DNA of 64,000 nucleotides, taken from contig NW_024881537.1 of the NCBI RefSeq assembly GCF_019059575.1, positions 1,424,501 to 1,488,500 of the forward strand. Reading direction: 5' to 3'. The position numbers were made by a program, and so were the translations under genes. The notes under the pieces are model-generated. The model worked only from the letters and a program-made list of their open reading frames with translations. It was not told the origin of the DNA and did no database searches. Origin of the DNA: Amphibalanus amphitrite (taxonomy: Eukaryota; Arthropoda; Thecostraca; Balanomorpha; Balanidae). Below are positions 6,655-60,493 of the stretch, piece after piece. Each line of letters starts with the position of its first letter. The first letter of the stretch is position 1.

Positions 6655-7841
6655 CCCGCGCCCTGGTGGGGTCTGTTTATAACGCGACCTGGTGGGGGGG
6701 GGGGGCTATTTTTTGCCCCCCTCGTATCTCCGAAACTACTGGACGGATCCGAAAAATTCAAACGGCGTTCGAAAGGCCTGTCAAATTTGTCGAGGGAAAC
6801 CAAATTTTATTGACCTCGGGGTCACCGATGACGTCACAGGTCAGGTCAAAGATGAAATGTTTCACCGTTCACGGGTCTTCTAGGGAATGCGCTATAACAC
6901 CGAGGAAAACGCATTTTGTCGGGAATCAGCGATAGGGCGTCAGTTGCCTAGTAGATATGTTGCTGTTAGAGGTCACTGGTCATACCAGGTCAGGTCACAG
7001 GTCAGGTCACCAAAGGTCACCAAGGGTCACCACATGAACCCAACTTTACTAAGGTTATGCGATGCATGTTTTATGGCCAGTTTTTCATTTCCAACTCAAT
7101 GGTGTTGGTTATAAGACCATCAGGTACGGTTTAGGTCACTTTCTGGTGGAGGTCAGGTCAAGGTCAGGTCAAAAAAGGTCAAATTTCAAAGTTGATATTT
7201 TTGCATAAAATGGGTATTGATTCGATGCAGCTCGTCAAGGGGAGTCTAATGGTGGTCTTTGTTTTGCGCTACGAGGTCTAGAATTGCTGAAAATCGAGTT
7301 TGAAAATTTGACGTCATCAATTTTGAACAGTTTTTTCGCTATAACTTGGCCAAAAAAAGAGGTATCGATCTCAAATTTGGTATGTAGATAGAAGGCGGTA
7401 GGGACTATCACATATATTCCGGTTTTTTCGAAATTCAAAAAACTTTTTGGATTTTTTGGCTATTATATTCAAAAAATCTATTTTTTGATTTTTGGGGGTC
7501 AAAATCCAAAAATTTCAAAAATCCGAGATAACAGTTTTGTAGCCCTGTCTATTTTACAGCTTTTATGTCTGTATCATTTTTCTGTATTTGCAAAGCTATA
7601 GGCCTGACAGCTCTTCCCGCGAAACCCTTTTTTGGGTCGAAAACGGCAGAACATGACGTCACTCTGACGTCATTTCCGGCCAACCTATCATAGCCTTTGG
7701 AAAAATTTTTGGTCACAATGTGTAAAATTGATGTCCGGGAGGGTACTGAAAGTTTGGTGACGATCGGCGCAGTGGTTCTGGAGATATATCGAAAAGTCTG
7801 GAGGGGGGGCAAAAAATAGCCCCCCCCCACCAGGGCGCGGG
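6655..7841 (+). mobile_element. TTAA-type (C family) element with an ACAT duplication
   Basis: Inverted ends CCCGCGCCCTGGTGGGG, flanked by ACAT at 6651-6654 and 7842-7845 within the minisatellite. The left end carries a second TIR-like copy about 27 bp in, then a G-run/C-run hairpin. Inside are TGACGTCA palindromes and AGGTCA runs. It is 1187 bp with no coding capacity. The ACAT flank shows the duplication is 4 bp and TTAA is a preference rather than a strict rule. Confidence 0.85.
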
Positions 7842-8265
7842 ACATGTAGGAGGCCCCCTGGATAAAGAGGAGGCCCCCTGGAAAATAGAAGCCCCCTGGA
7901 TTAATAGGGGACCTTCTGGACAAACAGGAGGCCTCCTGGACAAATAGGAGCCCCCCTAGACGAATTGGAGGCCGCTTGGACAAATAGGAGGCCCCCTAGA
8001 CAAATAGACTCTGTAACAGTAGGAGGCTCTCTGTACGTGCAAATAGGAGGCCGGCGCTCGGCCTGTAGAAGCTTAGCTGTATGTACAAAAAGGAGGCTCT
8101 CTGTGCAAGTAGTCGAAGTAGGAGGTTCTCTGTACTATACCTACAAATAAGAGGCCCCCTGGGCAACTTAGAGGCTACACAAATCGGAGGGCACCTATAA
8201 AAAAGCGGTACTCTGTTGGAATGCCTGTTTGAATAAATTGTTTTCCTGATATTCAAATTATTTAA

Positions 8266-9752
8266 TCCTCGCCCGCACATGGGGGGGGGGGGGCAGTGGT
8301 TGCCACTCCCTCCCTCCAGGTAGTTTTTTCTGCTCTGCACTCAACATTTTGATTGCTAGAAGCCGAATGTTTCGTATATCTGCTTCTCTATCCTTTCTTA
8401 GCGTCCACTAAAAATTTCAAGTTTCTGTGGTTTTTGGTTTCGGAGATATGACTTTATTCTTCAGGTGATGTCATAACCCAAATGACAAATGCCCAATATC
8501 CTGCGTTGGCTATGGGTCTTGTGAGCGTTTGACACCTTGATTTCGGCCTTTTTTGCCAGTCTCACCTCCCACCTATCATGGAACATGTTGTTTGATGATG
8601 TAGAGATGCCAGGATCAAGGTCAACCTAGGTCATCTAAAAATATTGCGTTTTAGGCAAGCTGAGTTGACTTTCGTGAAGTTTCTTTGACTGTAAAAGCTT
8701 CTCAGTTCATGATCTCATGCTATAGGGACACATCAGTATACAAACAGACACACACAGACATACAAACACATATCATTGACCTTGACCTAACTTGACCTGA
8801 AATGACCACAGCCTAGTCGGATAGTGTGACAAAGAGGTTCTAGCTGGCTTGGCACCACAATACGGCAGCGTCATCGGTATATGATGAGCAGCGCACGTGA
8901 TATTCCAACGGGCAACGGTGACCTCAAACAGCAACATTCTTTAGTTTGACCTGACCTGGAAAGTCAATTACTGACCTGATGAGGTTAAATTTGGTATCAT
9001 TGGATTCGTCTCTTCCCAAAGAATCTGTTGCTCTTGACCGCGAAGCTTAAAATCTTGTTTGAATAAATTGTGGTGATGTCGAATAAAATACCTACACAAG
9101 CAGCGGGCCAACCCATCATATACCGATGACACTGCCGTATTGGTGCCAAGCCAGCTAGAACAGCTCTTTGTCACACTATCCGACTAATTTGCTGGCTGTG
9201 GTCATCTCACGTCAAGTTACGTCAAGGTCAATGATATGTGTTTGTATGTCTGTGTATGTCTGTGTATGTACTGATGTGTGCACACTGCACAGATTGGGTT
9301 GTGTGTCCTTATTACATGAGATCATGAACTGAGAAGCTTTTACTAAACATGCAGTCAAAGAAACTTAACGAAAATAATTTTAGATGACCTAGGTTGACCT
9401 TAACCCTGACCCTGACATCTGTACATCGCAGAACAACATGTTCAATGATAGGTGGGAGGTAAGACTGGCAAAAAAAAGCGGAAATCAAGGTGTCAAAAGC
9501 TCACAAGGCCCATAGCCAACACTGAACGCAAGATGTTGGGTATTCCTCATTTAGGTAATGACATGACCTGAAGAACAAGGTCATATTTCCAAACCCAAAA
9601 GCCACAGAAACTTGAAATTTTCAAAGTGACGCTGAGAAAAGATAGAAAAGCAGCTATCCAAAAATCGGGTTTCTAGCTTTAAAAATGTTCAGTGTAGAGC
9701 AGGAAAACTAACTTGGGGGTGGCACCCCCCCCCCCCCAGGTGCGGGCGAGGA
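8266..9752. mobile_element. K element: almost complete palindrome with TTAA flanks
   Basis: Ends TCCTCGCCCGCAC(A/C)TGGGG, 18 of 19 matching, with TTAA at 8262-8265 and 9753-9756. The two halves (about 8266-9000 and 9010-9752) are reverse complements over nearly their whole length, including the C-run, a TGACCT-rich block and a GCTAGAA phrase. A fold-back element without coding capacity. Related to 30985-33955. Confidence 0.8.
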
Positions 9753-9756
9753 TTAA

Positions 9757-10200
9757 GCCGCACACTTTCTGGGGTATAGGTTAGATTCCTTGCGCAATAC
9801 TGTGCCATTAAATTCTTTTTTCTATAATAAAGGCATTTTGTTTTATCGTCGAAAGTGAAAATGCCAGAAATTTTCATCGATTTCGGACGCCACGGGCATA
9901 TTTACATACAATGTCACCCTGCTGGCCTGAATCCACCAGTATGGGTCAGGTGAAGTACCATTTCTTTATTAATATTGACAAAAATCATGGCATCCGGGCT
10001 GTGACGAAAAATAAGTGGCCTAAATCCGATGATAAAACTGGATTTGGGGATACCCTAGGCTTGGCTTCTGAGCCTCCGGTCCCCCAGTGAAAATTTCTTA
10101 GAGGAGGCCCTGGCGTGGTTCGTAAATTACCGCTTCCGCAATTGGAGGCCCCTAATTGCTTGGAGGCCCCCACTAAATGGAGGCCCCCTATGACGTTTGG
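9757..10200. other. Right part of element F
   Basis: AT-rich sequence, then short GGAGGCCCC units leading to the right end of F. No gene signal seen. Confidence 0.5.
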
Positions 10201-10548
10201 GACCCCATTGGTGATGTCAAAGTTTCACCCATGCCTACAGTAGATGTCGGAGGCCTTTGAAAATCGCAGGATGGCCAGAATCGCAGGCCATTAGTAGCTA
10301 CAATTTGTATATCTCGGAATTTTGATATCTGTGACCTAAGGTCAGGTCAGTGGTGTGACCTTTCACGAAAAAAATGTAGAAAAATTGTAATTCACGAAAA
10401 AAATGAAAAATTGTAAACCTTGTCCGTGCGTATCCGATGCCGTTTACCGCTTGTCGCTATCTTGCTTCGTTCTCGAGATCTCAGGGGGGCGGTCATCCGC
10501 CCCCCGTTGGTACTAAGTTGGCGCAGAGTAAGTCGGTGCGCATGTTAA

Positions 10549-11717
10549 CCCGCGCCCCGTAGGGCTACCGGCGGACCCTACCACCCGTAGGGGGGGGGGG
10601 GCGTTTTGCCCCCCCCCCCCCTAAGATCTCGGAAAGTTACCGGCCGATTTTCAAAATTCAAACGGCGTTCGATAGCCCCACCCGGGAACTACCTTGTGAC
10701 CAAATTTCATTGACCTAGGTCAAACCGATGACGTCACAGGTCAGGTCAAAGGTCAGATTTTCACCGTTCACAGGCATTTCAAGAAATGTGTTGTGAAATC
10801 GAGTTAATTGGTAATTTATTGAGAACCATCGATGGTACATTGTTCGTCAAACACATACTTTGCTATCTGAGGTCACTGATACCAGGTCAGGTCACAGCGA
10901 GGTCAGGTCACCGGAGTCACAATATGAAAGTGTCGTGTGATACATGTTTTATGGTCCATTTTACATGACAAATGCGATTATGTGGGTTAGACAGCCTTTG
11001 GGGCCAGCCTAGGTCACGTTTTGGTGAAGGTCAGGTCAAGGTCAGGTCAAATAAGGTCAAATTTCAAAGTTGATATTTTTGCATAAAATGGGTATCGATT
11101 CGATGCAGCTCGTCACGGGGAGTCTAATGGTGGTCTTTGTTTTGCTCTACGAGGTCTAGAACTGCCAAAAATTGAGTTTGAAAATTTGACGTCATCAATT
11201 TTGAACAGTTTTTCGCTATAACTTGGCCAAAAAACGAGGTATCGATCTGAAATTCGGTATGTAGATAGAAGACGGTAGGTACTATCACATTTATTCTGGT
11301 TTTTTTGAAACTCAAAAAACTTTTTGGATTTTTTGGCTAATATGTCAAAAAAAAAGTTTTTTTGATTTTTGGGGTTCAAAACACTAAAATTTCAAAAATC
11401 CGAGATTGTAGTTTTGTAGCCCTGTCAATTTTACACCTTTTATGTCTTGATCATTTTTCTGTATCTTCAAAACTGTAGGTCTGACAGGTCTTCTCGCGAA
11501 GGTCTTTTTTTCGGTCGAAAATGACAGAACATGACGTCATTCTGACGTCATTTGTGGCCAACCTATCATAGCCTCTGGAAAAATTTTTGGTCACAATGTG
11601 TAAAATTGATGCCCGGAGGGGTCCTGAAAGTTTGGTGGCGATATCTGAAGCGGTTTAGGAGATATCGACCGAAAAGGACAGGGGGGGCCGTTTCGGCCCT
11701 CCCCTACGGGGCGCGGG
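10549..11717 (+). mobile_element. TTAA element, 1169 bp (G)
   Basis: TIR CCCGCGCCCCGTAGGG (16 bp, perfect), TTAA at 10545-10548 and 11718-11721. The left end has a duplicated TIR-like copy and the hairpin GGGGGGC-GTTTT-GCCCCCC. Internal order and sequence are close to 6655-7841 and 22978-30805. The left TTAA is shared with the D element; on the right TTAATTAA joins it to the next element. Confidence 0.9.
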
Positions 11718-11725
11718 TTAATTAA

Positions 11726-12895
11726 CCTTCGCCCCAGTGGGGGGGGGGGCATATGTTACCACCCTGTCGCGTTTTTTGCGTGTGAATAAAAAACCGCGGG
11801 CCGCTTGGGGTAGCATTTGGTACATCAATTTTGGACAATGTGTGAAATTTTTGACCCCAGGTCAAGTCAGGTCAGGTCACCAGGTCAAGTTAACTGACCA
11901 AGCCTAAAAAAGTTTGCAATCATGTCCAGCCTGCATTGTTTGTCAGAGAGGTTTTAAACTTAGTGGATTGCATGATGGTATGGGTGCCTAGAATTTGTAT
12001 ATCTCAGATTTTTTATATGCGTGACCTAAGGTCAGGTCAGTGGTGTGACCTTTCCATTATAAGTCAATGGAGAAAAACGAAAATGGCTCCAGATCCGTGT
12101 GTACGCATAGGAACAGTCCAAATATTTCAGAATCACAGTGATTTGGACGACCAGTGACGAGCAAGGTGTCGTTTTTGCTGATAGCCTCTAGAAAGGTCAT
12201 CCGAGGTCATTTGAGGCTACAAACAGTTTTTTGCCAATAACTCTCGATTGGAAAAAGATAGAACGCTGGGGTTGACCTCATTGTGTTTGTCTTGCCGAGA
12301 CGCATCGACTGATATGCAACATGACCTTTTCCGGTCAGGTCATGACCTTGACCTGAGGTCAAATTTTGAAGTTGACCTTTCAAGGTCAAATTATAGTTCA
12401 TTCGACGCGTCTCGGCGAGAGGAACACGATTCTGGCGATAGAAATATCCTTGCTTTTTTAGTCAAAAGTTATCGTCGAAAAACACTTTTCGTAAAAACAG
12501 CTATTTTTAGAGTTTTTGCCCTCTGGAGGCTAAACCGTTGACCTGAGGTCAAATCTGAGTACATTTCTCAGAAAGTTCTGTAAAAGGGCTATCGAATGCG
12601 CTTTTCCTCGGCGCTGTAGCTCTATCGGTTCCCGAGATAGCCGTTGGCAGTTTCCAAAATGTTGAAACAGTCAACATTTTACCTTTGGGGACCTCTGGTG
12701 ACCTGACCTTTGACCTGACCAAAAAAATGACCATGGGTTTTCGTCCTTATTTTGGACTTTCTTTCGATTGCCGCTTACCGCGTGTCGCTACATGGCTTAA
12801 GAGCCGAGTTAGAAGGGGGGGGGTGTTCAGACACACGCCCCCCCCCCGGCCCGGCGCGGAATCTCACAGCACCGGCCTGGCGCGGGTTGAAATTG
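11726..12895 (+). mobile_element. TTAA-type element, B family
   Basis: Starts CCTTCGCCCCAGTGGGG after TTAA (11722-11725) and ends GGCCTGGCGCGGG before TTGA, a probable decayed TTAA. The ends do not match each other well, so it may be a hybrid of two related elements. It contains the central dyad at 12291-12419 with TGACCT/AGGTCA runs and a C-run hairpin near its right end. Confidence 0.6.
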
Positions 12896-13948: not shown

Positions 13949-14105
13949 GTAAGCACTAGTTGTCATGTTCCGGGGCTCCGGGAAGTACCTACACGATTAG
14001 CGGGCAATGCAAAATGAATGCCGCTTTATCTCTGTTAGGCATTAATTAGGTACATATTATGTTTAAACATAAACATAAACATAAACATTATGTTTCAGCT
14101 TTTAA

Positions 14106-15008
14106 CCCTCGCGGGCCTGGCGGGGGAGGTGGCCCCTCTGGCGAATATTTGTGATAGCTCTCCCGAACGCTTAGGGATAAGAAGGCGAAACTTTCAGTAC
14201 CCTTTCTCCCATCAATTTGACATTTGCTGATTGGATAACCCGTGACGACCAAGGTGTCTGTTTTGCTGATAGCCTCTAGAAAGGTCATCCTACTAGGTCA
14301 TTTAAGGCCACAAACAGATTTTTGCCAATAACTCTCGATTGGAAAGAGATAGAACGCCGGGGATGGCCTCATTATGTTTGTCTTGCCGAGGCGCATCGAC
14401 TGATATGCAACGTGACCTTTTCTGGTCAGGTCATGACCTTGACCTGAGGTCAAATTTTGAAATTGACCTTTCAAGGTCGTAGTATAGTTCATTAGACGCG
14501 TCTCGGCGAGCGGAACACGATTCTGGCAATAGAAATGTCGTGTTTTTTTTTTAGTCAAAAGTTATTGTCGAAAAACACTTTTCGTTAAAACAGAACATCG
14601 ATTGGAAAGAGATAGAACGCCGGGGATGGCCTCATTATGTTTGTCTTGCCGAGGCGCAATTTTTTTTGGAGTTTTTGCCCTCTGGAGGCTAAACCGTTGA
14701 CCTGAGGTCATTTTTGATGATGACCTTATCAAAAGAAGAGGTCAAAAGCTATCGATTGTTTTTCCATGCGTTTTTCTAGCTGTCATAGTTCCTGAGATAA
14801 TGGCATGTTTTCTGAAAAAATATAATGGTTGCTCTAATGTGAAAAATGACTAAAACACTTTCAAACGTACGCATTGAGAGCTATCGACTGCTTTTTACCG
14901 CGTCTTTCTAGCCATCTTAGTATTTGAGTTAGAGGTGGGTGGTTACATATGCCCCCCCCCTCTCCCCCACTAGGGCGAAGTTGGCTGAGACCGCCACTGG
15001 GGCACGGG
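14106..15008 (+). mobile_element. TTAA-type element with local 60-bp duplication
   Basis: TTAA at 14102-14105 and 15009-15012. Ends CCCTCGCGGGCC and the reverse complement of CCCGTGCCCC are only partly alike, with a second TIR-like copy at the right end. It contains the central dyad at 14382-14510. A ~60-bp piece of it (14336-14396) is repeated at 14598-14658. Confidence 0.65.
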
Positions 15009-15056
15009 TTAATTCCGCTTTTTTGAAGCGCCTGGCCTACTGTGCGCCGGCAGTTG
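15009..15056 (+). repeat. Conserved ~43-bp motif starting TTAATTCCGC
   Basis: The sequence after TTAA (TTCCGCTTTTTTGAAGCGCC and 20 more bases) recurs at 49334-49377 and, reversed, at 47974-48017. It always begins at a TTAA. Nature unknown. Confidence 0.65.
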
Positions 15057-17258: not shown

Positions 17259-18259
17259 CCCGCGCACCAACGGGGGTGGGGGCGGATATCCGCCCCCCCC
17301 CCCCCTGAGGTTTTTCGCGAATAGCGGGAAAACCGCGGCGCGTAGCGCCGCGAAATATAGTACGACTATTCCCTCATCAATTTTACACATGGTGTGCAAG
17401 TTTGAACCTCCTACCTTTCAAGGTCAGGTCACCAGGTCACTTTGAATGACCCAACCTCAAGTCACTTTTTTGCAACTTTGTCACCGTGCCAGAGCTACAG
17501 TAGATGTCGGAGGCCTTTGAAAGTCGCAGGATGTTATTAGGTCATTAATAACTACAATTTGTAAATCTCGGAATTTTTATATCGGTGACCTAAGGTCAGG
17601 TCAATTTCGCGACCTCCCCATTATAAGTCAATGGGGAAAATCAACTCCCTGTTTTTACCACTAAAACGGGTCGGAATGGCCCCATATACCATACATGACT
17701 TCATATACGATCAACCTTCACTACCTTGAGGTCTGTTTTGCTGTTGGGCAGCTGTGAGGTCATGTGACGTCATCAAAGGTCACCAAAGGTTTTTGGCCAA
17801 TAACTCCGTACAGGAACAAGATACAGACGCGTGGATGGTCTCATTGTGTTCAGCTCGTCAAGACGCATCGAATGATATACATGATGACCTCGAGGTCACG
17901 TGACCTGAGGTCAACCTTTGACCTTGACCTTTCGAGGTCAACATATATATCATTCGATGCGGATTGACGAGAGGATCACGATGGTGCCCTTAATTTGTTC
18001 CTTTCTTGACTAATTCGAAAGTTATTCGAGAAAAACTCTCCATGTCTAGCGCCGCCATTTTGACTTTTTCGACCCCTGTGACGTCATCTTTGACCTGACC
18101 TGAAAATGACCTTTGTAAAAATTGTAGACATTGTCCGTGCGTATCCGATGCCGTTTACCGCTTGTCGCTATCTTGCTTCGTTCTCGAGATCTCAGGGGGG
18201 GCGGTCATCCGCCTCCCCCCGTCGGTGCGAAGTTGGCGCAGACCCCCGTCGTGCGCGGG
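17259..18259 (+). mobile_element. Intact D-family TTAA element, 1001 bp
   Basis: The cleanest copy: TTAA at 17255-17258 and 18260-18263, ends CCCGCGCACCAACGGGGG and (reversed) CCCGCGCACGACGGGGG. Left end: perfect palindrome GGGGGCGGATATCCGCCCCC, then the GC hairpin GCGGCGCGTAGCGCCGC. Centre: dyad 17854-17971, arms sharing GCATCGAATGATAT, enclosing AGGTCA/TGACCT copies. Right end: TIR-like copy duplicated ~30 bp apart. No ORF. Confidence 0.92.
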
Positions 18260-20159: not shown

Positions 20160-20163
20160 TTAA

Positions 20164-20700
20164 AGGAAATAGTTCACATTTTAACATGGGTTTTTAACTG
20201 GAATAGCAGTTCCGTAGCTTGGGCTGAGACGAGCATAAATCAGGAGCTTTTACAGCCCAACGATCACCCTAGGCAAAGATATTCTATTTCTCGTCCCGAA
20301 AAAGGTGCCTTGCGTTGAGGTTGTGTGCCTTGCATATATTTGCATCCAGTATGAAACGAGCATGGGTCCCGAAAATTCTTCAGAAACGCTCCAGTAACAA
20401 AAGAAAATTATTCGGAAAATTCTTCAGAGGCGCTCCAGTAACAAAAGCATGAGCAGATCGCCCAAATGCCGGTGGCCGCGATAATTTCTCTAGCTTCTGA
20501 AGAATTTTCGGGACCCATGCTCTTTTCATACTGGATCGCGTGTGCCTTACAGAAACTGAAAAGTTCTTCCAATATCAAAAATATAGAAAATAATATTTTG
20601 TTATTAAAAGGTTTTATTTTCTTTGCTGATCATTTTGAACATAAAAAATCATAAATCCATTGCAAAAAAAATATAATTTCGTGAAAGTGAACTATTTCCT
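20164..20700. mobile_element. 537-bp TTAA element, AGGAAATAGTTCAC type
   Basis: Perfect 14-bp inverted ends AGGAAATAGTTCAC, TTAA on both sides (20160-20163, 20701-20704). Internal inverted copies of 'cccgaaaattcttcag..gc' make it partly fold-back. Both TTAAs are shared with neighbours. Confidence 0.85.
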
Positions 20701-21263
20701 TTAAAGGGAGATAATGACCTTTTTCCACAAAATCTGAGTTAGGACCATTTTCTGACAAAACACAACAAGTTATAATGTAAATTAAAACCATTTTGCTCAA
20801 TTCGGTACCTTGCCGCAAATATCTTAACTTGAAGTCACGTTAGCGGGGAGCGCTGAAAATGACCGTTGAATAAGTACTTACATCGCTTGTTGGTACCTAC
20901 TTGCATGTAATTTTGTAAAATGAGCGTATTCCTTACATTTGATCTTCATCACATCTAGTTAGTTAATGGTCGTCTATAGTGCCTTCAAAAGATATTCATA
21001 GTTTTTGGGGTGGTTTATGTCTAAATTTACGCAACTATTTTTCCTGTTCATCATCTGACGCCATATGCTGCTATTTTAGTAGCAACGACTCAATTTTGAA
21101 TCGGTCCCGCCGACTGTACAATAAAAGAAGATAGATACAACACTTTTGCGGCATCACTGAAAAACTTACGCAGTACTGTTATCAAATTTCTCATAACACC
21201 GTTCGACAAACCTGAAGTCTTTTTGAAATAAATATGCTTGTATTTTTCGCTTCAGGCTCTGAC

Positions 21264-21535: not shown

Positions 21536-21696
21536 GCTCTGACGCCAAAATAATGAATTTCGTAGTCGCAATCGCAAGATTTGGCTGCGTTTCTGGCGCA
21601 TGCCGTTCATTTGTGGCGCAAAATGATACTTGGAAACAAAGAAGAGTAGGCACTATGTACCCCGAATTAGAATCTAATTAATTCTAAACCGAATTA

Positions 21697-22667: not shown

Positions 22668-24056
22668 TAACTCTAATTCAAATTAGAATCCTTACAACCA
22701 AGCAACGACAAGGCGATAACATAAACAAAAACCCAAGCGTCGCTGTTTGAAACAAAAGCGCCATATACTGCGACTTTTTTATAGAGAAGGACAACGCATT
22801 TCGGTGGGTGTTACAAGTACTGCAAGTACTGCTTCTTTTTTGCAAAAATAAAAAACCTTTTTAACATACGAAAATGTGCTAGGAAATTTTCATATTTTAT
22901 AGAAACTACAGTAGAAATAGTATAGATGTCGAGTAATTTTTATTTAAGAAAAAAGAAAGCTCATTATCTCCCTTTAACCCGGCAGGCGGTGGGCCTCCCG
23001 GCTACCTTCCGCGCGGTGGGGGGGGGGCATTTTTTGCCCCCCCCCCTCGTATCTCCGAAACTACTGGACAGATCCGGAAAATTCAAACGGCGTTCGATAG
23101 CCCTGTCCAATTTGTCGAAGGAAACCAAATTTCGTTGACCTCGGGGTCACCGATGACGTCACAGGTCAGGTCAAAGATAAAATGTTTCAACGTTCACGGG
23201 GCTTCTAGGGAAAGCGCTATAACACCGAGTAAAACGCATTTTGACGAAAATCAGCGATAGGGCATCAGTTGTTTAGTACATATGTTGCTATTAGAGGTCA
23301 CTGGTCATACCAGGTCAGGTCACAGATCAGGTCACCAAAGGTCACCAAGAGTCACCACATGAACCCAACTTTACTAAGGTTGTGCGATGCATGTTTTATG
23401 GCCAGTTTTTCATTTCCAACTCAATGGTGTTGGGTATTAGACCATCAGGTACGGTTTAGGTCACTTTCTGGTGGGGGTTAGGTCAAGGTCAGGTCAAAAA
23501 GGTCAAATTTCAAAGATTGATATTTTTGTATAAAATGGGTATTTATTCGATGCAGCTTGTCACGGGGAGTCTAATGGTGGTCTTTGTTTTGCGCTACGAG
23601 GTCTAGAATTGCTAAAAATTGAGTTTGAAAATTTGACGTCATCAAACAGTTTTTTTTTCGCTATAACTTGGCCAAAAAAAGAGGTATCGATATCAAATAT
23701 GGTATGTAGATAGAAGGCGTTAGGGACTATCACATATATTCCGTTTTTTTCAAAACTCAAAAACTTTTTGGATTTTTCGGCCATTTAAAAAAAAAAATCT
23801 TTTTTTGGGGGGGGGGGTCAAAATCCAAAAATTTCAAACATTCGAGATAGCAGTTTGTAGCCCTCTTAAAGGGACCCTTCCACCTTAAAAAGTTAATGAA
23901 TTGGCATAAAAGTGGTGTACCGTGAATCAGAAAGAGCGAAAATGAACATCCACCAAATTTCACCGAAAAAAAATAAAAATATTCACCCGTTTTTTGAAAT
24001 ATAAGACTTTTATTTTATAACGCGCGGTCAATGGGCTTGATGACGTCATCAGAGTC

Positions 24057-26662
24057 CAGGGGCGGTCGCAGACTTGGAGTTTGGGGGGGGGGCCAACTTG
24101 GCAAAGGGGCCCCTGCGCTGACCCGGGGGGCCCGGTGCTAGCTTAAAGGGGCCCACGGGCGTAGTGCACGGGTGCAGAAATCCAGGCCATGGCCGGTGAA
24201 GCGGGGGGGGGGGGGGTAGGGAGCGGCACCCGAGCGGAGGCTCAATGCGAGCTTTGAGGGTGTACCATGTCGAAAAGGTACCGATAAGTGCATTTTGAAG
24301 CATTGATATTGTCAATAATTCACGCAACTGTGAATGGATTACCGCAAAAGTAAAGGCGGCTTAGGCGGCTAACTTTGCCATTTTCTAAGATCATCGTGCT
24401 AAAACTTTTGACAGTGGGTCATCGGTATCTGTTCACTGTTCAATCACATGTGTTCCGTTTCATCTTTCTTTTTTTTTTTACTTGGGCACAAATGTAAGTT
24501 TTGAAGATCATAACAGTAGCAAATGCTTCGAAAGATGGATAGTGGGCAAAATATCCTAAATTTGTCGTGCTGCATGGAAAGTAGTGTTGCTGAGAACAGG
24601 GGGTTTTGTTCCAGATTGTTGTGGATGCAGAATACATTGTTTGCACTCACTGCAGAATTATTGTTGGTGCAACTGCGCCCACTGCATTGTATTGTATTGT
24701 ATTGTATTATTGCACCCATGGTTCCTACACTTATGGGCCCATCGATAGCGCTTCGGCGATACCTATCGCCTAGAGGCTGCAATGGGGCCCTTAGAGTACG
24801 GTGTCAGACCCCCCAGAGGCAGGCGTTGGACCCAAGGGTCAGCGAAGGGCCTCAAAGGCCCAGGTAGGGCCCTAGAGGCTGATGTGAGCCTTCAGAGGCA
24901 AGTGCATGACCCCCGAAGGTAAGGCATGAGACCCCCAGAGAACATAACAGGGCCATCATTGGCCGGTGTAGAGACCTCATAGGCCAGTTTGGGGCCCCTC
25001 AGAGGCTAGTGTGGTGCCTCAGGTGTCGGTATGAGGCACTTAAAGACCGTAATGGGTCTTCAGAAGCCGGCATCGATCCTTCAGAAGCCAGTACGGGGCC
25101 CTCAGAGGCACATAAGGGTCAGTTTGGGTTCCAGAGACAGAAATGGGACCATCAGAGGCCGATGTGGGACTTTTAAAGGCTGGTTTGGGCCCTTAGGGGC
25201 CAGCACAGGGCCTGCAAAGGGCAGTTTGAGATCATCAGAGACCGAATTGGGCACTCAGAGGCCAATGTGGGCCCTTACAGGCCAGCATGGAGCCCACAGA
25301 GGTTAGCGTGGGGGCCCTAAAAGACCGTCATGAGCCGGCGTTGGACCCAGAGGCCAGTAGAGGGCCCTCAAAGGCCAAGATGGGCTCTCAGAGGCCGATG
25401 CGGGCCCTTAGAGGCCGGCATCGGGTCTTCAGAAGCTCGTGCGGGGCCCTCAGAGGCTAAGGTGGGTCCTTACAGGCTAGCACGGGCCCTCAGAGGTCAG
25501 TGTGGGGCCCTAGAAGACCGGCATAGGCCGGCATTGGACCCCAGACAGAAGGCCCTCATAGGCCACGATGGGCCCTCAGAAGCCGATGCTGACCCTTAGA
25601 GGCCGGCATCGGGTCTTCGGAATTCAGTGCGGGGGAGGGCCCTCAGAGGCTAATGTGGGCCCTTACAGGCCAGCATGGAGCCCTCAGAGGTCAGAATGGG
25701 ACCCTAAAAGACTGGCATTGGCCGGCGTTGGACCCCAGAGGCCAGTAGAGGGCCCTCGAAGTTCAAGATGGGCCATCAGAGGCCGATGCGGGCCCTTAGA
25801 GGCCGGCATCGGGTCTTCAGAATTCAGTGCGGGGCCCATAGAGACTAATGTGTGTCCTTACAGGCCAGCATGGGGCCCTCAGAGGTCAGTGTGGGGCCCT
25901 AAAAGACCGGCATGGGCCGGCATTGGACCCCAGAGGCCAGCGGAGGGCCCTCAAAGGCCAAGGTGGGCCCTCAAAGGCCAAGATGGGCCCTCAGACGCCG
26001 ATGCGGGTCGGCCGGCATTGGGTCTTCAGAATCCAGTGCGGGGGCCCTCAGAGGCTAATGTGGGTCCTTACAGGCCAGCATGGGCCCTTAGAGGTCAGTT
26101 TGGGGCCCTAAAAGGCCGGCATGGGCCGGCATTGGAACCCAGAAACCAGCGGAGGGCCCTCAAAGGCCAAGATGGGCCCCCAGAGGCCGATGCGGGCTCT
26201 TAGAGGCCGACATCGGGTCTTCATAATCCAGCGCAGGGCCCTCAGAGACAATTATTAAAGGCTGGTCTTGGGACTCGAGAGACAGAAATGAGGCCACCAG
26301 ATGCCGGTGTGAGACTCTCAGACGCCGGTTGGGCCCCTAAGGCCGGTTTAGGGGCCCTCAAAGGCCAGTGGAGGGCCCTCAGAGGTCAATGTGGGTCCTC
26401 AGCGGTCAATGTGGACGCATGACCGCCACTGAAGGGCCCTCAGAGGTCCGTGTAGGACCCTCAAAGACTGGTATGAGAGCTGTTAATAGCTGGCGTGGGT
26501 GTCTCGAGCCTCGTGACAATCGAATACGGGCCAAGGCCCCATACGGCCATGGGGGCCCATCGGTTGTTTGGGGGGGGGGCCAAATGATATGATGGCCCCC
26601 CCTGATTTGCCTTTGGGGGGGGGGGGCATGGCCCTGATGGCCCCCCCTTGCGACCGCCACTG
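24057..26662. mobile_element. hAT-like element carrying a minisatellite
   Basis: 8-bp duplication TCAGAGTC (24049-24056 and 26663-26670). Ends CAGGGGCGGTCGCA and (reversed) CAGTGGCGGTCGCA, each followed by a G/C run. The body is almost wholly the GGCCCTCAGAGGCC array. No hAT transposase. Confidence 0.9.
24780..26480. repeat. Minisatellite, ~28-33 bp unit around GGGCCCTCAGAGGCC
   Basis: Degenerate units with alternating spacers (AGTGTGGG, GATGCGGG, AGCATGG) and higher-order periods of roughly 200-280 bp (25330-26250). A (TGTAT)n run lies just before, at 24690. ORFs through it are artefacts. Confidence 0.9.
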
Positions 26663-27609
26663 TCAGAGTCCGTTAGTGTTAAAGGTAGTGTGCCAGCTTT
26701 CTTGGACCGTATGGAGTTAATGGCCCAGATAAGGAGAACCGGATTTTTAGAACTTATCCATACCTTCAAAACTCATGGAAACGTCTTAAATTCTTCAAAT
26801 TTTGAGTACCCCAGTGCGAAATTCGCCCCGACGGGTTGTCGGTCGTACCCCAACCACATTTCACACCACTATGAACAATAAATGCACACACTGAAATCGC
26901 TATTACCGATATGCTCATCCAATCAAGTTTCGATAAACCCGTTCATCATCATCTCCTGCGGTTTCGAACACGCCTGTTAGGTGGCTTCTGATGCTCGTCG
27001 AGGTCGGAATTTCCAAATACGCGTGGTGCGTCGGGCCGCGCGCTCTGACTTCGGCCAAGAAAAATGCGTCAGCTGATCATTGTCATTTCTGCCACTTGCG
27101 TGTGGTGAAATGGGGTCATAACTTATAAGACGGCTTTTTCATATCAATTATTTTACATAAAATCATATTTCAAACCATAAATAATGTTCGACAGCCAAAT
27201 AAAAGAAACAATACCAATACGGGCTTACAGTTTAAGGCTCGACATTGTGTTGTCTACGATTAGACAGCTGATAACTCATTCCCGTACGTCGTATGGTCGT
27301 AACCACAGGGGAGCAATGCCGCTTCAACCCTATTGGCCGTAGTGTCTAACGGTGGCGGCCATATTGCGCAGACCAGAAACCGGCTGCCGCCTGTGTTGAG
27401 GAATAGGGAATTCGGGACCTCGATTTACGTTTGCGGCCGCCGTATCCGTTACGTTCAAGTTACGTAGATACGGAACCCGGCATCTTACGCAGAATTGAGT
27501 GGGGAACACGATCGTATCTTCAGAATTCCTCAAATTTACTCGCCTGACCTACATTTGCCCCGGCCGAGGGGGTTGATTGAACCCACCTCGCTAATGCACC
27601 GCTAATTAA

Positions 27610-28793
27610 CCCGCGCCCTGCTGGGGGGGGGGTGTTTGAACACCCCCCCTTGTGGTTTTTCGCGAATATCTCAAAAACGGCGGCGCTCCGCGCCGCCGTT
27701 TTTGGTACACCTTATCATACATCAATTCTACACATCTTGTGAAAATTTCAGACCAAGGTCATTCAAGGTCAGGTCACCAGGTCACTTGAAGTGACCTCAC
27801 CTCATAAAAACTTTCAATGTCTGTCATAGCTACACCGAGTGACCGATCGCTTTGAAACTTTCAGCGATTGCTAAGAGCAATAGCATGTACAAAATGTATA
27901 TCTCAGAATTTTGATATCGATGACCTAAGGTCAGGTCAATTTTGCGACCTCCCCATTATAAGTCAATGGGAGAAAATTGAAATGCGCCTCTTTTGGATGA
28001 AAGACATTATACACACTCCCAAACACCGAATTACAAGTGGTTTAGACACACTGAACTTGAAAATGGTGTCCGTGACCCTTGTTTATGCCCTGAGGTCATC
28101 TTAGGTCACGAATGGTATCTAACAGTTTTCGCAAATAACTTTTGATAGAGGCATGCTAGAGCGATGAAAACGCCTTAGATGTGTTCAGCTCGACGATACG
28201 GATCGACTGATATGCAACATGACCCTTTCCGGTCAGGTCATGACCTTGACCTGAGGTCAAATTTTCAAGTTGACCTTTCAAGGTCAAGTTATAGTTCATT
28301 CGATGCGTCTTGACGAGAGGAACACGATGCCGGTAAAAGTAAGCTCGTACAAGGCTTGGGTCAAAAGTTATTGCAGAAAAACTGTTTTCGAAAATATCGG
28401 CTATTTTTGCAGTTTTTGCCCCCTGCAGGCAAAACCGTTGACCTTAGGTCAAATCTGAGAGAATTACTCAGAAAGGGCGTTAATAGGGCTATCGAATGCG
28501 CTTTTCCGCGGCGCTGTAGCTCTATTGGTTCCCGAGTTATGCGTTGGCTTCTTGGAAATTTTCGACATTCGACCTGGAAATCGGCGAAATTTTGCCTTCA
28601 ATGACCTCTGGTGACCTGACCTTTGACCTGACCAAAAAATTGACCGAAGTGATTTCGTCATTATTTTTTACGCTTTTTCGAACGCCGCCTTCCGCGTATC
28701 GCTACGTGGCCCAGGAGCCGAGTTACAAGGGGGGGTGTTCAAACACCCCCCCCAGCAGGGCGTGGAAATCCAGGACCCCCAGCAGGGCGCGGG
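27610..28793 (+). mobile_element. TTAA element, 1184 bp, CCCGCGCCCTGCTGG type
   Basis: TIR CCCGCGCCCTGCTGGGGG at both ends, TTAA at 27606-27609 and 28794-28797. Left: G-run hairpin GGTGTT-TG-AACACC and a long stem around AAAAACGGCGGCGC/GCGCCGCCGTTTTT. Centre: dyad 28188-28317. Right: duplicated TIR copy. The innermost of four nested TTAA insertions. Confidence 0.92.
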
Positions 28794-28884
28794 TTAAACT
28801 AGAATTAAGCGGTAAAGTGGTCGTATGCGGCAAAGTATAATGCAGAGTGACTGGTAGGAACCCGCTGTAAGGGTCTCAGGTCAA

Positions 28885-29272
28885 CCCAGCAAACATGCCC
28901 ACATGGTTCCCATATGGGGCCCACATGGGCCCCCCACCTCTTCCATATGGGTCCCACATGGGAATGGCAGTGGGTGACACGTGGGACCCATATGGGCCAG
29001 CCCACGTAGGCCCCATATGGGACCCACGCGGCGCCCACATGGGACCCATATGGGTAGCCCATCTGTAGCCCATGTCCCACGTGGGCCCATCTGGCCCATG
29101 TTCACCCCATATGGGACCCACATGGGATGCCCATCTCCAGCCCACATGCGTTTGGCCCATTTTTATCCCATATGGGGCCCATATGGGTAGCCCATCTGTA
29201 GCCCATGTCCCACGTGGGCCCATCTGGCCCATGTTCACCCCATATGGGACCCATGTGGGCATGTTTGCTGGG
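28885..29272. mobile_element. 388-bp inverted element of CCCATATGGG palindromes
   Basis: Ends CCCAGCAAACATGCCCACAT in inverted orientation. The interior is nearly all CCCATATGGG/CCCACATGGG-type palindromic words in tandem, so it can fold in many registers. The MGPIW/HMGPT-type ORFs through it are artefacts. Confidence 0.8.
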
Positions 29273-29274
29273 AA

Positions 29275-29790
29275 CCGGTGACCTCTGAGGTCAGGTCAAG
29301 TGATCTAAGGCACGGGTTCGGTTTTTGGTAAATAACTTCGCCAAAAATGGCCGTAGAGCCGCGATTTTGGCATCATCGTGTTCAGCTAGCTCAGGCGCAT
29401 CGAGTGATATACTTTTTGTTCGGGTCAGGTCAACTTAGGGTGTTGACCTCAGGTCAAGGTCAGGTCAGCACCCCCAGGTCACGAAGTTGGTCGAAAGAGG
29501 TCATGTCGCATATCATTCGATTCGGCAGGTCTTCCTGAGTCCATTGGTGGCTTTCCCGACTCGCTAGCTCAATTTAATCGGGAGTTATTGAAGAAAAATG
29601 GTGACCATTGTGACGTCACAAATGACGTCACGCAAGGGCAACAATGCAAATATGAAGCATAGAACCTTGCAAGGAATGCATGAAATCATGATTTTATATG
29701 CTTGAGATAGTTTCAGATCATTCTCGGCGCCAAAATAACAATTTTCATATTTCCCCATTGACTTATAAGGGTTTAACGTATTAGTTCCTT
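29275..29790 (+). repeat. Diverged core of a TTAA-type element
   Basis: Contains a degenerate central dyad (about 29390-29535; GCGCATCGAGTGATAT ... ATATCATTCGAT) with AGGTCA copies and TGACGTCA-like words, without recognisable ends. Confidence 0.55.
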
Positions 29791-30809
29791 ATAGCTGATG
29801 ATTTTTTAGGATTTCATCTTGTTCTCTACTCAATTCTGCGTAAGATGCCGGGTTCCGTGTCCACATAGCTTGAGCGTAACGGATGCAGCGACCGCAAACG
29901 TAAATCGAGGTCCCGAATTCCCTATTCCCCAGCACAGGCGGCGGCCGCTTTCTGGTCTGCGCAACATGGCGGCACCGTTGGACACCATTTGGCGGCCGCA
30001 TGTTTATTAATCCCACCCAGAAATGACAAACAAGGCCTCTGATTGGCCAGTTTGGCGGCCGATGCGCATTCCACATTATAGAGTTCAGTGGTCGTAACAC
30101 TATAATGACCTTTGCTTATTGTCACAAGTGCGCCGCATTCGCGATTGTTGCCCGACGCCTGTTTGCAGGTGAGCCCACTACAGTTGTTATACCTACATAT
30201 CTAAAAACCGAAAAACTTTTAGGCGAAAAAGGCACTATTCCAGGCCCATTTTTGATTTTTTTTTGCGGTATTAGGTAAAAACAGAAGCTTCTTATCCTAG
30301 GAAAAATAAAATGGGAAATCTTTCAAAGGTGGCACACTACCTTTAAGAGATAGGGACTACGCTGGTCCCACCCTGCAAGTAAAGGGAAGAAATTTATTGA
30401 ACACTATAAAGCTGCGGGGGTTGCGACCAGGATAAATGGTGGTTTCTGAGCCTGGCCGCAAACTTGGCTATCTCAACTCAAAACTAATCTGTTAAGGTGG
30501 GAGGGTCCCTTTAATTCTACACCGTTTATGTCTGAAACATGTTTCTGTGTCTCTAAAGCTGTAGGCCTGACAGCTCTTCCCGCGAAACCTTTTTTGGGTC
30601 AAAAATGGCAGAAATGACGTCACTCTGACGTCATTTGCGGCCAACGTATCATAGCCTTTGGAAAAAATTGGTCACAATGTGGAATAGCTATTCACGGGAG
30701 GGTACTGAAAGTTTGGTGACGATCGGCGCAGTGGTTCTCGAGATATATCGAAAAAAACTAAGCCGGGGGGGGGGGGCAAAAATGCCTCCCCCACCGCCTG
30801 GAAGGTTAA

Positions 30810-43913: not shown

Positions 43914-45083
43914 AACCCGCGCCCTGATGAGGGGGCCATTTTGCCCCCCCCCCTGTGGTTTTTCTTAAATAGCGAGAAAACGGCGGCGCAAATTTGGGTA
44001 CCTTACCGGGCATCAATTTGACACCTTCACACAAAATTTCAAGTCACAGGTCACCTCAGGTCAGGAGTTATTGAGGTCAAACTGAGGTCATGTTCGAGTA
44101 AAAATGAGCAAAAAACATGGCATCTTTAAACGCTCACAAATTCTACAGTTAACAAGCAATTTTAAAGTTCTTTATGTGGTTGTGTAGAGAAAAGACGGCG
44201 CTACAAAACTGCTATCTCGGATTTTCGAAATTTTGGGATTTTGACCCCCAAAAATAAAAAAAATGATTTTTTTTAGAAAAACTCAAAAAAATTTCAAAAA
44301 AATTTCGAATTTCGAAAAAAAAACGGAATATATGTGATAGTCCCTGCGCTCTTCGATATACATACCAAATTTTAGATCGATACCTCTTTTTTTGGCCAAG
44401 TTATAGCGAAAAAACTGTTAAAAATTGATGACGTCAAATTTTTGAACTCAATTTTTAGCAATTCTAGACCTCGTAGCGCAAAACGGAGACCACCATTGAA
44501 CTCCCCGTGACGAGCTGCATCGAATCGATACCCATTTTATGCAAAAATATCAGCTTTGAAATTTGACCTAATTTGACCTGACCTTGACCTGACCTTGACC
44601 TGACCTTGACCAAAACGTGACCTAAGCTGGCCCTAAAGTCTGTCTGACCCACATAATCGCATTTGTCATGTAAAATGGACCATAAAACATGTATCACACG
44701 ACACTTTCATATTGTGACCCGCCCAGTGACCTGACCTCTGTGACCTGACCTGGTATCAGTGACCTCAAATAGCAAAATATGTGTTTGAAGAACATTCCCC
44801 CATCGATGATTTTCAATGAAATGCATTTTACTCGATTTTACAACGCATTTCTTGAAATGCCAGTAAACGGTGAAAATTCGACCTTTGACCTGACCTGTGA
44901 CGTCATTGGTTTAACCGAGGTCAATGAAATTGGGTCACAAGGTAGTTCCCCGTTGGGGCTATCCAACTCCGTTTACCGCTTGTCGCTATGTTGCGTGGTT
45001 CTCGAGATCTGAGGGGGGGGGGGCCAAAATGCCCGCCCCCCCCATCAGACCGCGTTGCTCGGCAGACCCCATCTGGGCGCGGG
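43914..45083 (-). mobile_element. TTAA element, 1170 bp (H)
   Basis: Ends (AA)CCCGCGCCCTGATGAGG and (reversed) CCCGCGCCCAGATGGGG, TTAA at 43910-43913 and 45084-45087. The duplicated TIR copy is at the right end, so it is in reverse orientation relative to 6655-7841. Dense TGACCT tandem copies at 44570-44640. Shares the right TTAA with the next element. Confidence 0.85.
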
Positions 45084-45969: not shown

Positions 45970-46176
45970 TTAAGTGTAAGGTTTGAAAGATATGGTTGCA
46001 TTGCACAATAGATGGATGCTGTTGACATTATACAGCTGAAGAACACATTGATTGAAGTAATGTGTGATAAAACACACATTGTATGTAGTTGTATCGTTCG
46101 CCAAAATCAAATCACCACCACCGTGGGCACTGGCACCCTCTGTCTCTGCGACAGTTCAAAATGACACCAGCGTTAA

Positions 46177-47349
46177 CCCGCGCGGGGCTGGGGTCTCCAG
46201 CCGAACGCGCGGGGCTGGGGGGGGGTAAATTTTACCCCCCCTGTTATCTCCCAAACTAATGGTCCGATTGGGAAAATTCAAACGCCAATCGAAAGCTCTC
46301 ATCACGAACTACTAAAAACATGCACTTAATTTAAAGTTTGAGGTCAAGGTCAAGGTCAGGTCAAGGGTACAAATTGCAAGTTTCTACAGTATCGGCCTTG
46401 CACCGTAGTTGCCGAAGAATGGAGTCATGGACTGAGACTGATCGCCCAAAACGTGTTCTTAGGCTACCAAGACAATATTCGTTGCATACAATATCATTCA
46501 GAGGTCAAGGTCAAGGTCAGGTCAGGTCAGGTCAGGTCACCAAAAAACAAAATATAGAAAAGGGCATGTGCGACACATGTTTTATGGGTCATTTTACTCA
46601 TAGAATTCAATAGGCACACTCAATAAGTGATATGGACCACCTCTGGATGAATTTCAGGTCGAGGTCAGGTCAAGGTCAGGTCAAGTGAGGTCAAATTTTG
46701 AAGTTGGTTTTTAAGGCCTAAAAAGGTGTCTATCTGATGCAGTTTTTCACGGCGAATCGAATGGTGCTATTTTTGTTTCCGTACGAGGTCTAGAACTTCC
46801 AAAAAAGTCATTTTTCAAAAATTTTGTGTGTCGTGACGTCATAAAATTTTGAATAACTCCCACATTTTTGAACCGATTCTTCTAAAATTTGGTATGTAGG
46901 TGCACATAGACCACTTCTCTGACATATATTCCGGTTTTTTCGATAGACTCAAAATTTTGGATTTTATAATGATTTTCCCAAAAAAGTCAGTTTTTTGAAA
47001 AAATTTAGGCCAAAATCCAAAATTTTCAAAAAACCGAGATAGCCATTTGATAGACAAAGTAGAATTACGTATAACCTTTTTTGTTACGTCTTGATTCCTT
47101 TAAAAATGAAGATGTTAGCGGCGTTTGAACTTTTGCCGTTTTTGAGGCGAAAATGGCGAACATGACGTCACTAAAACGTCAATTTCTCAAAAATTTTCCG
47201 ACGGATTTCGCTCAAATTTTCAGGGAACGTGTCAAATTGATGTAAGAAAAGGTACTGAAAGTTTGGCGGCGCTGCGCGCCGCCGTTTTTGAGATATCGCA
47301 AAAATTCGCGAGGGGGGGTAAAATTTACCCCCCCCCAGCCCCGCGCGGG
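46177..47349 (+). mobile_element. TTAA element, 1173 bp (J), CCCGCGCGGGGCTGGGG type
   Basis: 17-bp perfect TIR, TTAA at 46173-46176 and 47350-47353. Left end duplicated, then hairpin GGGGGTAAATTTTACCCCC. Right end with the GC hairpin GGCGGCGC-TGC-GCGCCGCC. AGGTCAAGGTCAGGTCA-type tandem copies at 46330-46540. Confidence 0.92.
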
Positions 47350-53440: not shown

Positions 53441-53441
53441 C

Positions 53442-53537
<96 letters not shown>

Positions 53538-54687: not shown

Positions 54688-54689
54688 AT

Positions 54690-57605: not shown

Positions 57606-57609
57606 ACTT

Positions 57610-57780: not shown

Positions 57781-58112
57781 CACGTGTTGTGCACGGTCTC
57801 CATCAGATGTGGCTGCGGTGACACTTGGCGGTCGGCGTGCCTTCAACAGACAGTAGGTGGTAGACACGCCATACGGCCTCTGTGACACCGTCTTTTCGTG
57901 TTTGGGGTCCACAGGGGTGTGTTTGATGCCCAGCTAACTGTCCGGAAGGCCAGCTGACGAAGGAGCCCGGTTAATTAGCCTTGAGCAATGTGGACCGAGA
58001 CCAGCTCCGGCCTCCGACATCGCTGCCAATTATTGATTACCCGAGCGAATTGCCCACTCGTAAAATCACGGGCTGGCGGTTCTATTCAGCCCACGGAATC
58101 TAAGAACAATTA

Positions 58113-60493
58113 GTGGCGGCCGCACAGTGATGCAAATGGGGCTCACGAGTGGCCATAAATAGTGAAAAGGTCCAAATTTCAGGTTCACCTAATTGAATAA
58201 ATCGTAATATGGCCAGTCAGGCAAGTGTTTGGGGTGTCTGAAAAAACATGACTCATGTTTTTGTCAAAACCGGCCTCGTGTATGATTGTCAGAAGTCGTG
58301 ACATTTTCTATGTCGTAAAATGACTGTCAGATACTCGCAACTTCAAACGCCGCTAGCGTGCGTCCATTTCATACAAATGACAAAAATTATACATGACAAT
58401 AATCCCCAAGGTCTTCGGATTCTAATGCAGGGTCACAAAAAGCCGTATCTCTTTTCGTTTGGCGTTGATCTAACTATTTGTCATCATGTTGCAATCGCAG
58501 TTTTTTATTTAAAAATATTTGCTTTCATTTCACCCAGAGCAGTTTACACAGTGTGTGCCCGTTAGTGCACCATACCATAGCATTCCCTAATCATTTCTGA
58601 GCCGCACTGTGAAAGAATGAAGACGCTAGCACAGGGCTGACCGGCGCTACTGAAGTTTTCGTCCGTTGCGGTCGGGTGCCGCGGCGCGGTGGGCAGCCCG
58701 GGCGGCCGCGCCGCGGGCGGGCGGTCTCAGCGGGGGTTCGTCGGTGCATCCCTCTGCTGTTCCTAAACGAAGTGTCCTATCGCCTCGCGACAAAAACCAA
58801 TGGATTGCTCTTGACAAGATCTCGCGAGTGAGCATATTACTTTTGACTTACGGCCAATATTTGACCTACTTATAGCAGTTCAAAGTTAAACGTCCGTCGA
58901 AATTGCGATCCGCGGTGAAAGCAATCCGCCCCGACCGCGACACCCGACCGCGCCGGACAAAAACTTCAATAGCGCCGGTCTGCCCTGTGCTAGCGCCTTA
59001 ACCCTATTCCTGGCGGGCTCCGCCGGGACAAGAAACTGGCGGGGGGGGGGGGGCCGATTCGGCCCCCCCCTGAGATCTCGAGAACGAAGCAAGATAGCGA
59101 CAAGCGGTAAACGGCATCGGATACGCACGACCAAGATCTACAATTTTTACAAAGGTCATTTTCAGGTCAGGTCAAAGATGACGTCACAGGGGTCGAAAAA
59201 GTCAAAATGGCGGCACTAAATATGGAGAGAGTTTTTCTCGAATAACTTTCGAATTAGTCAAGATAGGAACAAACTAAGGGCATCATCGTGATCCTCTCGT
59301 CAATCCGCATCGAATGATATATATGTTGACCTCGAAAGGTCAAGGTCAAAGGTTGACCTCAGGTCACGTGACCTCGAGGTCATCATGTATATCATTCGAT
59401 GCGTCTTGACGAGCTGAACACAATGAGACCATCCACGCGTCTGTATCTTGTTCCTGTACGGAGTTATTGGCCAAAAACCTTTGGTGACCTTTGATGACGT
59501 CACATGACCTCACAGCTGCCCAACAGCAAAACAGACCTCAAGGTAGTGAAGGTTGATCGTATATGAAGTCATGTATGGTATATGGGGCCATTCCGACCGG
59601 TTTTAGTGGTAAAAACAGGGAGTTGATTTTTCCCCCATTGACTTATAATGGGGAGGTCGCGAAATTGACCTGACCTTAGGTCACCGATATCAAAATTCCG
59701 AGATATACAAATTGCACATACTGGTACCCTAACTAAACCCTGAAGAGAAGAAATTGATCGGTCAAAAACTCTAGCTCTGGCGTGATTGCAAACTTTTCTG
59801 AGGTAGCGTCACCAAACCGCCTCTGGTGACCTGACCTGAGGTCAGATCAACTCAAAATTTTCAGACATGTTGCGTAGAAGCCTTTTAGGAAAAGTCAGAA
59901 AATTTGAGCTTCCTAGCTCAACGCGTTTGGGAGATATAACCAAAAAACCTCAGGGGGGGGCTCCTGAAGCCCCCCCCCCCGCCAGGAATAGGGTTAATTC
60001 TTTCCCAGTGTGACTCAGAAATGGTTAGGGAATGATATGGTATGGTGCACCAACGGGCACACACTGTGTAAACTGCTGTAGGTGAAACGAAAGCAAATAT
60101 TTCTTAGTAAAAAACTGCGATCGCAACATGATGACAAATGATTAGATCACCGCCACACCAAAAAAGATGCGGCTTTTTGTGACCCGGCATGAGAAGCAGC
60201 AGGCTTTAGGGATCATTGCCATGCATAATTTTTGTCATTTGTATGAAATGAACGCACGCTAGCGGCGTTTGAAGTTGCGAGTATCTGAAAGTCATTTTAC
60301 GACATAGAAAATGTCACGACTTCTGACAACCATACACGAGGCCGGTTTTGACAAAAATATGAAAACTATGTGAATCCAGATGCGCCAAACATTCCTTTGG
60401 TTAGCCATATAGCGATTTACTCGGTTTGGTAAACTTGACTTTTTGGTATTTATGGCCACTCGTGAACCCCATTTGCATCACTGTGGGCCGGCG
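58113..60493. mobile_element. Fold-back element with ~570-bp inverted arms
   Basis: 58113-58690 and (58950-60493 minus an insert) are reverse complements. Outer ends contain CACAGTGATGCAAATGGGG. A GC-rich centre (58660-58760) separates the arms. The right arm was later hit by the TTAA element 59002-59993, which the left arm lacks. Confidence 0.8.
59002..59993 (-). mobile_element. D-family TTAA element, 992 bp, CCCTATTCCTGGCGGG ends
   Basis: 16-bp perfect TIR, TTAA at 58998-59001 and 59994-59997. Left end duplicated, dyad 59296-59413, interior nearly identical to reversed 17259-18259 over the central region, but its left-half ends differ. The empty site is visible in the opposite arm of the fold-back element. 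Confidence 0.92.

Follow-up and report, generated by a model that had tools for sequence, protein, structure and literature searches.

What kind of mobile element fills the window, by which we mean the whole stretch of 64,000 nucleotides of Amphibalanus amphitrite DNA analyzed here, and why are the two ends of each copy built differently? The original prediction grouped eight elements into one superfamily of TTAA elements with one conserved asymmetric plan, in which one end (End A) carries the TIR twice and the other end (End B) carries it once, and it did not recognize the kind. Judged by their transposase sequences, the elements are piggyBac elements and belong to the clade of T. ni piggyBac, the moth transposon used in genetic engineering. 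We consider it very probable that they are non-autonomous, MITE-like elements of the T. ni type, that coding relatives in the same genome supply, or once supplied, the transposase, and that End B represents the LE and End A the RE with a shifted module.

All eight elements were located, each with both ends inside the window (Table 1). The doubled TIR lies on one and the same end, End A, in all eight; this is the right end in 17259, 27610, and 43914, for which the predicted orientation was corrected. End A contains the TIR core twice, followed by a G-run/C-run palindrome (the predicted hairpin) with the G-run starting at bp 40-42 in 8/8 elements, and the AGATCTCG-like and AAACGG-like phrases described earlier adjoin it each time. 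End B has one TIR. The GC hairpin that was said to occur often at this end is present as a strict palindrome pattern (G-run at bp 14) in four of the seven End B copies checked and as an imperfect palindrome in the other three (11717, 17259, and 43916), End B of 22978 at 30805 being outside those seven. The combination of CC(C/T) tips with a TTAA target duplication, a hallmark of piggyBac, was found in the listed set with three deviations. TTAA flanks both sides in five of the eight. Element 43914 has TTAA plus two extra A on one side, the split element 22978 is flanked by TTAA on either side but ends in CCT at End B, and 6655 is flanked by ACAT. The latter element interrupts a 20-bp tandem repeat, which is continued when the flanks are joined with one ACAT. 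A second non-TTAA duplication, ATAA, was observed at a nested piggyBac outside the clade (locus L039).

Table 1. Elements located in the window; coordinates of the listed elements exclude target duplications.
Element	Positions	Strand	End A	End B	Remarks
6655	6655..7841	+	6655, doubled TIR CCCGCGCCCTGGTGGGG	7841	duplication ACAT, 4 bp, 6651-6654 and 7842-7845
10549	10549..11717	+	10549	11717	TTAA both sides
17259	17259..18259	-	18259	17259	TTAA both sides
22978	22978..30805	+	22978	30805	split by 6.6-kb insertion
27610	27610..28793	-	28793	27610	TTAA both sides
43914	43916..45083	-	45083	43916	
46177	46177..47349	+	46177	47349	TTAA both sides
59002	59002..59993	+	59002	59993	TTAA both sides
Further element	4263..10544	-	10544	4263	absent from earlier list
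Further TTAA element	8266..9752	.			TCCTCGCCCGCAC tips; 14 AGGTCA; neither end looks doubled here

The insertion in 22978 is a TTAA/AGGGACCC element (about 23866-30514) that itself holds element 27610. The apparent cut lies at 23865 and the second half resumes near 30514, where 284 columns match the 3' part of 6655 at 84.9%. The additional element at 4263-10544 encloses 6655-7841, 8266-9752, and the tandem repeat, and in a relative of 8266-9752 (L047, 549-1451) one of the two ends is doubled. More ends or G-run/C-run palindromes of this type, some with decayed TTAA, lie around 12815-12847, 14102-15012, 31002-33910, 45134-45973, and from 48517 onward. A separate set of TTAA pairs carries AGGGA, AGGAA, or AGGTA tips (3758-4262, 20160-20704, 20701-22977, 23866-30514, and 26679-30346), with 0-1 AGGTCA in each of three counted. 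The window also holds a Mab-21-like frame and a long reverse-transcriptase frame, and an Rfam search of the window gave no match.

When the window was scanned for paired TTAA sites bearing inverted tips of 12 bp or more, 12 pairs were recovered, compared to none (18 times) or one (twice) in 20 random sequences matched in dinucleotide composition. Four of the eight listed elements are among these 12 as proper pairs, and the rest were missed due to mutated tips, mutated TTAA, or insertions. The duplication was also tested singly against shuffled DNA in six listed elements (leaving aside 6655 and 22978). It is clear in 46177 (W46173) and 27610 (W27606), with p 0.001 or less, and not clear in 59002 (W58998), 43914 (W43910), 10549 (W10545), and 17259 (W17255), with p 0.12-0.82; the best offset in 17259 is 44, and its tip has lost a base. 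For the latter four elements, the duplication is argued from the offset and position that they have in common with the others.

The ends were counted across the assembly (807,550,619 bases in 2,644 contigs) with a pattern composed of TTAACCC, a spacer, seven G, 4-18 bases, and six C, taking counts from the forward strand. A spacer of 5-35 gave 16,804 forward-strand ends, 15,907 of which have a spacer of 8-12 (single-TIR class), and a spacer of 28-58 gave 20,558, of which 19,723 have a spacer of 35-41 (doubled-TIR class). The intermediate spacer of 23-25 is represented by 92 ends, several of which, among the rows listed, are single ends with very long G-runs. Single and doubled ends are two separate classes genome-wide. 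Reverse-strand counts are larger (65,600 for spacer 35-41) because a single site is entered there with its overlapping variants. Assuming that the two strands are equivalent, the genome would contain about 39,000 doubled ends, which at 1.2 kb each would amount to roughly 6% of the genome.

Among the 100 matches listed for spacer 28-58, 99 are distinct doubled ends. With offsets of 14 to 39 allowed, the inner copy is offset by 26, 27, or 28 bp in 15, 66, and 18 cases, respectively, and thus in 99/99, which confirms the doubling and narrows the proposed distance of about 25-30 bp to 26-28 bp. These 99 ends carry 30 different 14-bp tips. The match score between tip and inner copy, taken by itself, is not extreme (at least 9 of 12 in 69/99 real ends and in 12.7% of shuffled ends); the evidence is the common offset. 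A chance origin of the plan is ruled out by control patterns read backwards, which gave 0-4 matches, and by the random sequences. The earlier claim that the duplication sits on the same end and is not due to chance is thus upheld.

Facing end pairs, found automatically in the window and the loci, number 22. Three of them join ends of different elements (L008:672-2701, L043:155-5069, and L045:839-6249) and were dropped, while all 19 kept pairs, from eight families, combine one doubled with one single end. Together with the two spacer classes, this bears out a single superfamily with one conserved asymmetric plan. The palindrome cores are alike at both ends of an element and different between families, as illustrated by the core TGTTTGAACA at both ends of 27610 and TAAATTTTA at both ends of 46177. 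The two cores are not identical in every element, with 59002 carrying CCGATTCGG and CTTCAGGAG. Across 11 end pairs with physical linkage (a twelfth from the same family was omitted, and the row of 46177 is cut at the wrong G-run), core similarity is 0.691 vs 0.388 for random pairing, a difference reached in 0/20,000 permutations. The inner TIR copy of End A agrees in the same set with the End B tip (0.795 vs 0.488; 0/20,000 permutations). In a wider table of 18 families the values are 0.797 vs 0.434 for the cores and 0.833 vs 0.478 for inner copy and End B tip, although the pairing was done by eye while the palindromes were visible, a procedure that favors agreement.

The check proposed with the original prediction, a full-length copy with a transposase bordered by the same ends, had a positive outcome. 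A search of the genome with Pfam DDE_Tnp_1_7 gave 116 scored matches, which were viewed with their surroundings at 30 loci, 20 longer stretches, and one more, with ends in view for part of the matches. Transposase genes lie inside asymmetric ends at L041, L043, L044, and L045 (590-674 aa) and at L049 (683 aa); P0001 (L043) scores 234.7 bits and P0002 (L049) 218.5 bits at a cut-off of 22.4. The first type comprises five copies (L041 and L043-L046), for four of which the stretch covers both ends; these show TTAA and follow the asymmetric plan (End A CCCTCGCACGACCAGG...CGACCAGGGGG and End B CCCTAGAACGCCTAGGGGG). The ends of L049 are CCCGCGCCCCGTTGGG (doubled) and CCCTCGCCCCGTTGGGGG (single), and a nested element outside its gene is of the 59002 type and 98.5% identical to 59002. 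At L059 (666 aa) the doubled End A is present and the other end lies beyond the stretch examined; in another relative, L036, a single end is visible in part. In 6/6 cases (L041, L043, L044, L045, L049, and L059), the direction of the gene is towards End A. In T. ni piggyBac the gene is oriented from LE to RE, which the direction from End B to End A matches. When the L043 protein served as query, 69 matches reached E 0.001 or better, mostly fragments or members of other clades.

Non-coding copies whose ends match a coding element while the gene is gone, as expected for MITEs, are 43916-45083, L045:5071-6249, and L043:155-1102. The first matches L049 over 1,029 columns at 85.0% and 133 columns at 85.7%, with the middle including the gene missing, and on this alignment 43914 is identified as an internal-deletion derivative of an L049-type coding element. 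The second matches L049 likewise (88.6% and 90.8%). The third is a deletion derivative of the adjacent coding element L043:1099-5069, with ends at 90.6% and 91.2%. Sequence comparison links only the 43914 and L043 types to a coding partner. The L059 type is a relative of element 27610 (67-73%), and L059 itself has its best match in the window at 12194-12732 (70%). Shared interior sequence links many families. As coding partner for the 27610 family, L039 was rejected; its element (1920-6500) is of the 27610 type and holds a nested CCCATTAG piggyBac with the ATAA duplication, and an uninterrupted 27610 copy shows the empty site. Two pairs of neighbors share one TTAA (L043:155-1102 with 1099-5069, and L045:1098-5074 with 5071-6249), as would result if one neighbor had used the duplicated target of its partner for insertion.

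The transposases indicate which piggyBac is involved. P0001 matches T. ni piggyBac (6x67) with E 2.2e-78 (267 bits) and piggyBat (9c0f) with 3.4e-30 (108 bits), and P0002 does so with 2.1e-66 (228 bits) and 3.6e-18 (69 bits), respectively. Four transposases outside the clade, from the same genome, show the reverse, with 80-100 bits for piggyBat vs 42-59 bits for T. ni piggyBac. The catalytic aspartates D268, D346, and D447 of T. ni align with D327, D408, and D508 of P0001, and the C-terminal Cys/His pattern of P0001 could be aligned to residue 593 of 6x67. In a tree of 19 transposases, in which the long branch of L047 is flagged, the four plan-bearing ones and L036 form one clade (100/100). 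The terminal duplication was sought in ten transposase elements outside this clade and was absent (lowest p 0.11). On visual inspection, a palindrome lies directly inward of one TIR in several out-of-clade elements, consistent with a CRD site at that place.

The asymmetry itself has a precedent, such that the elements do not represent an unrecognized kind. According to excerpts of the published work on T. ni piggyBac (PMC7351741), bp 34-63 of the RE repeat bp 7-35 of the LE, so that one end has a single TIR followed by a palindrome while the other carries an extra copy of this module, displaced by 27-28 bp, with the motif repeated. The same excerpts call the unequal ends puzzling and enigmatic and propose a second, inner dimer on the RE. 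The barnacle elements share this asymmetry, with an offset of 26-28 in 99/99 doubled ends, and resemble T. ni piggyBac (LE35/RE63; PDB 6x67/6x68) also in TTAA target, CCC tips, transposase clade, catalytic aspartates, and C-terminal cysteine pattern. They differ in that the palindrome has G-run/C-run arms and a family-specific core unlike the sequence of the T. ni CRD site, in the longer AGGTCA arrays in both flanks, and in the dozens of tip varieties with mostly non-autonomous copies in one genome. As far as excerpts of the piggyBat (Myotis lucifugus) papers describe it (PMC11707139; PMC13405395), this member of the superfamily also has unequal ends with repeated motif-plus-palindrome modules and an inner, non-catalytic dimer proposed from structure, but its LE repeats are 44 bp apart and its RE has no palindrome. 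The CMITE elements of Acropora corals likewise form TTAA MITE families that differ in their TIRs and have an interior in common, with one family tied to a piggyBac-like transposon, but are about 100 bp long, and the excerpts of PMC2872659 mention no doubled end, G-run palindrome, or AGGTCA array. Within the parts of the literature compared, we met no precedent for the scale, the family-specific G-run/C-run palindromes, or the dense AGGTCA arrays.

Because End B and End A show the same offset and layout as T. ni piggyBac, they are assigned by analogy to LE and RE. End B would present its TIR to the catalytic core and then the palindrome, whose position inside the TIR would suit a site for the dimer of the C-terminal zinc-binding domain (CRD). 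End A would be the End B module shifted inward by 26-28 bp, the new tip being occupied by a repeat of the TIR, and the inner TIR copy of End A may seat a second, inner transposase dimer. Cut-and-paste transposition, mostly into TTAA, would then use one LE and one RE. The inner dimer, the binding of the CRD to the G-run/C-run palindrome, and the requirement for an LE/RE pair are carried over from T. ni piggyBac; the bordered transposase genes, the deletion derivatives, the gene direction, the fixed offset, and the palindrome agreement were read from the barnacle sequences themselves. Points that count against this reading are the two non-TTAA duplications and a palindrome whose sequence departs from that of the T. 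ni CRD site.

Two other readings were weighed against this one. The elements could derive from another TTAA superfamily (e.g., Sola3), with the adjoining piggyBac genes being nested insertions only. Such insertions do occur, as in L039 and, in a similar arrangement, L028. However, at L041, L043, L044, L045, and L049 the asymmetric ends directly enclose the transposase, with no extra TTAA/CCC pair listed around it, non-coding copies match the flanks on both sides of a transposase gene, and the clade bearing asymmetric ends is separate from the nested kind in the tree. Since the transposases between these ends are piggyBac, we put this origin aside as extremely improbable. It is also very unlikely that the doubled end is a chance or founder feature passed on by descent without a role in transposition. 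The interior sequence shared across many families does imply a common ancestor, but the tips have diverged into at least 30 14-mers while the offset was kept at 26-28 bp, the inner copy has changed along with the End B tip, and in T. ni piggyBac a 5-bp shift or a randomized inner motif halves activity, according to excerpts of PMC7351741.

Non-autonomous T. ni-type piggyBac with LE- and RE-like ends, the preferred reading, could be extended by a further module. No other hexamer of the window is as over-represented as AGGTCA, which occurs 304 times (10.2 times expectation), with 13-22 copies per listed element vs about 0.5-0.6 expected and 0-4 in seven elements of other clades. The predicted richness in this motif is thus real, but it is not confined to the center and occurs in both halves. 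Another 150 copies lie in patches outside 12 masked stretches of the window, several by further ends of the same kind. In three transposase lineages, the motif is concentrated in the non-coding flanks on both sides of the gene and hardly occurs in the gene itself (0/13 positions in L043, 1/51 in L049, and 1/30 in L059), although 18 of the 51 positions in L049 belong to the nested element. Same-strand spacings in the window peak at 5, 6, 10, 11, 16, 22, and 27 bp. These peaks are close to half-turn DNA steps, through either tandem copying or phasing. As an addition to the preferred reading, the AGGTCA and TGACGTCA arrays may serve this clade as one more functional unit, to which a host factor or additional transposase would bind, an idea we hold tentatively. 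The distribution and the peaked spacings speak for it, whereas the spacings may merely reflect tandem copying of 5-, 6-, and 11-bp units. Nuclear-receptor dimer sites were considered as the meaning of the motif; the commonest spacing, 5 bp, speaks against them, since half-sites would overlap, which does not fit the spacing rules of such dimers. Among the papers listed by a literature search on AGGTCA in such elements (ten of 167), none contained the motif.

The kind of element and the LE/RE asymmetry are known, while the scale, the G-run/C-run palindromes, and the AGGTCA arrays are new relative to the portions of the literature compared; families taken singly may still be undescribed. A bolder scenario, which we regard as rather doubtful, is that dozens of T. 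ni-type lineages run in parallel, in each of which the TIR core, the phased inner copy, and the CRD palindrome would have changed together at a fixed 26-28 bp to give an end code of its own, with the arrays as a third working module, unknown in other piggyBac elements, recruiting a host factor or extra transposase. The same design and offset under at least 30 14-bp tips argue, on comparative grounds, for the importance of the inner site and its phase, and the family-specific palindromes offer many natural end variants for learning how piggyBac transposases read their ends.
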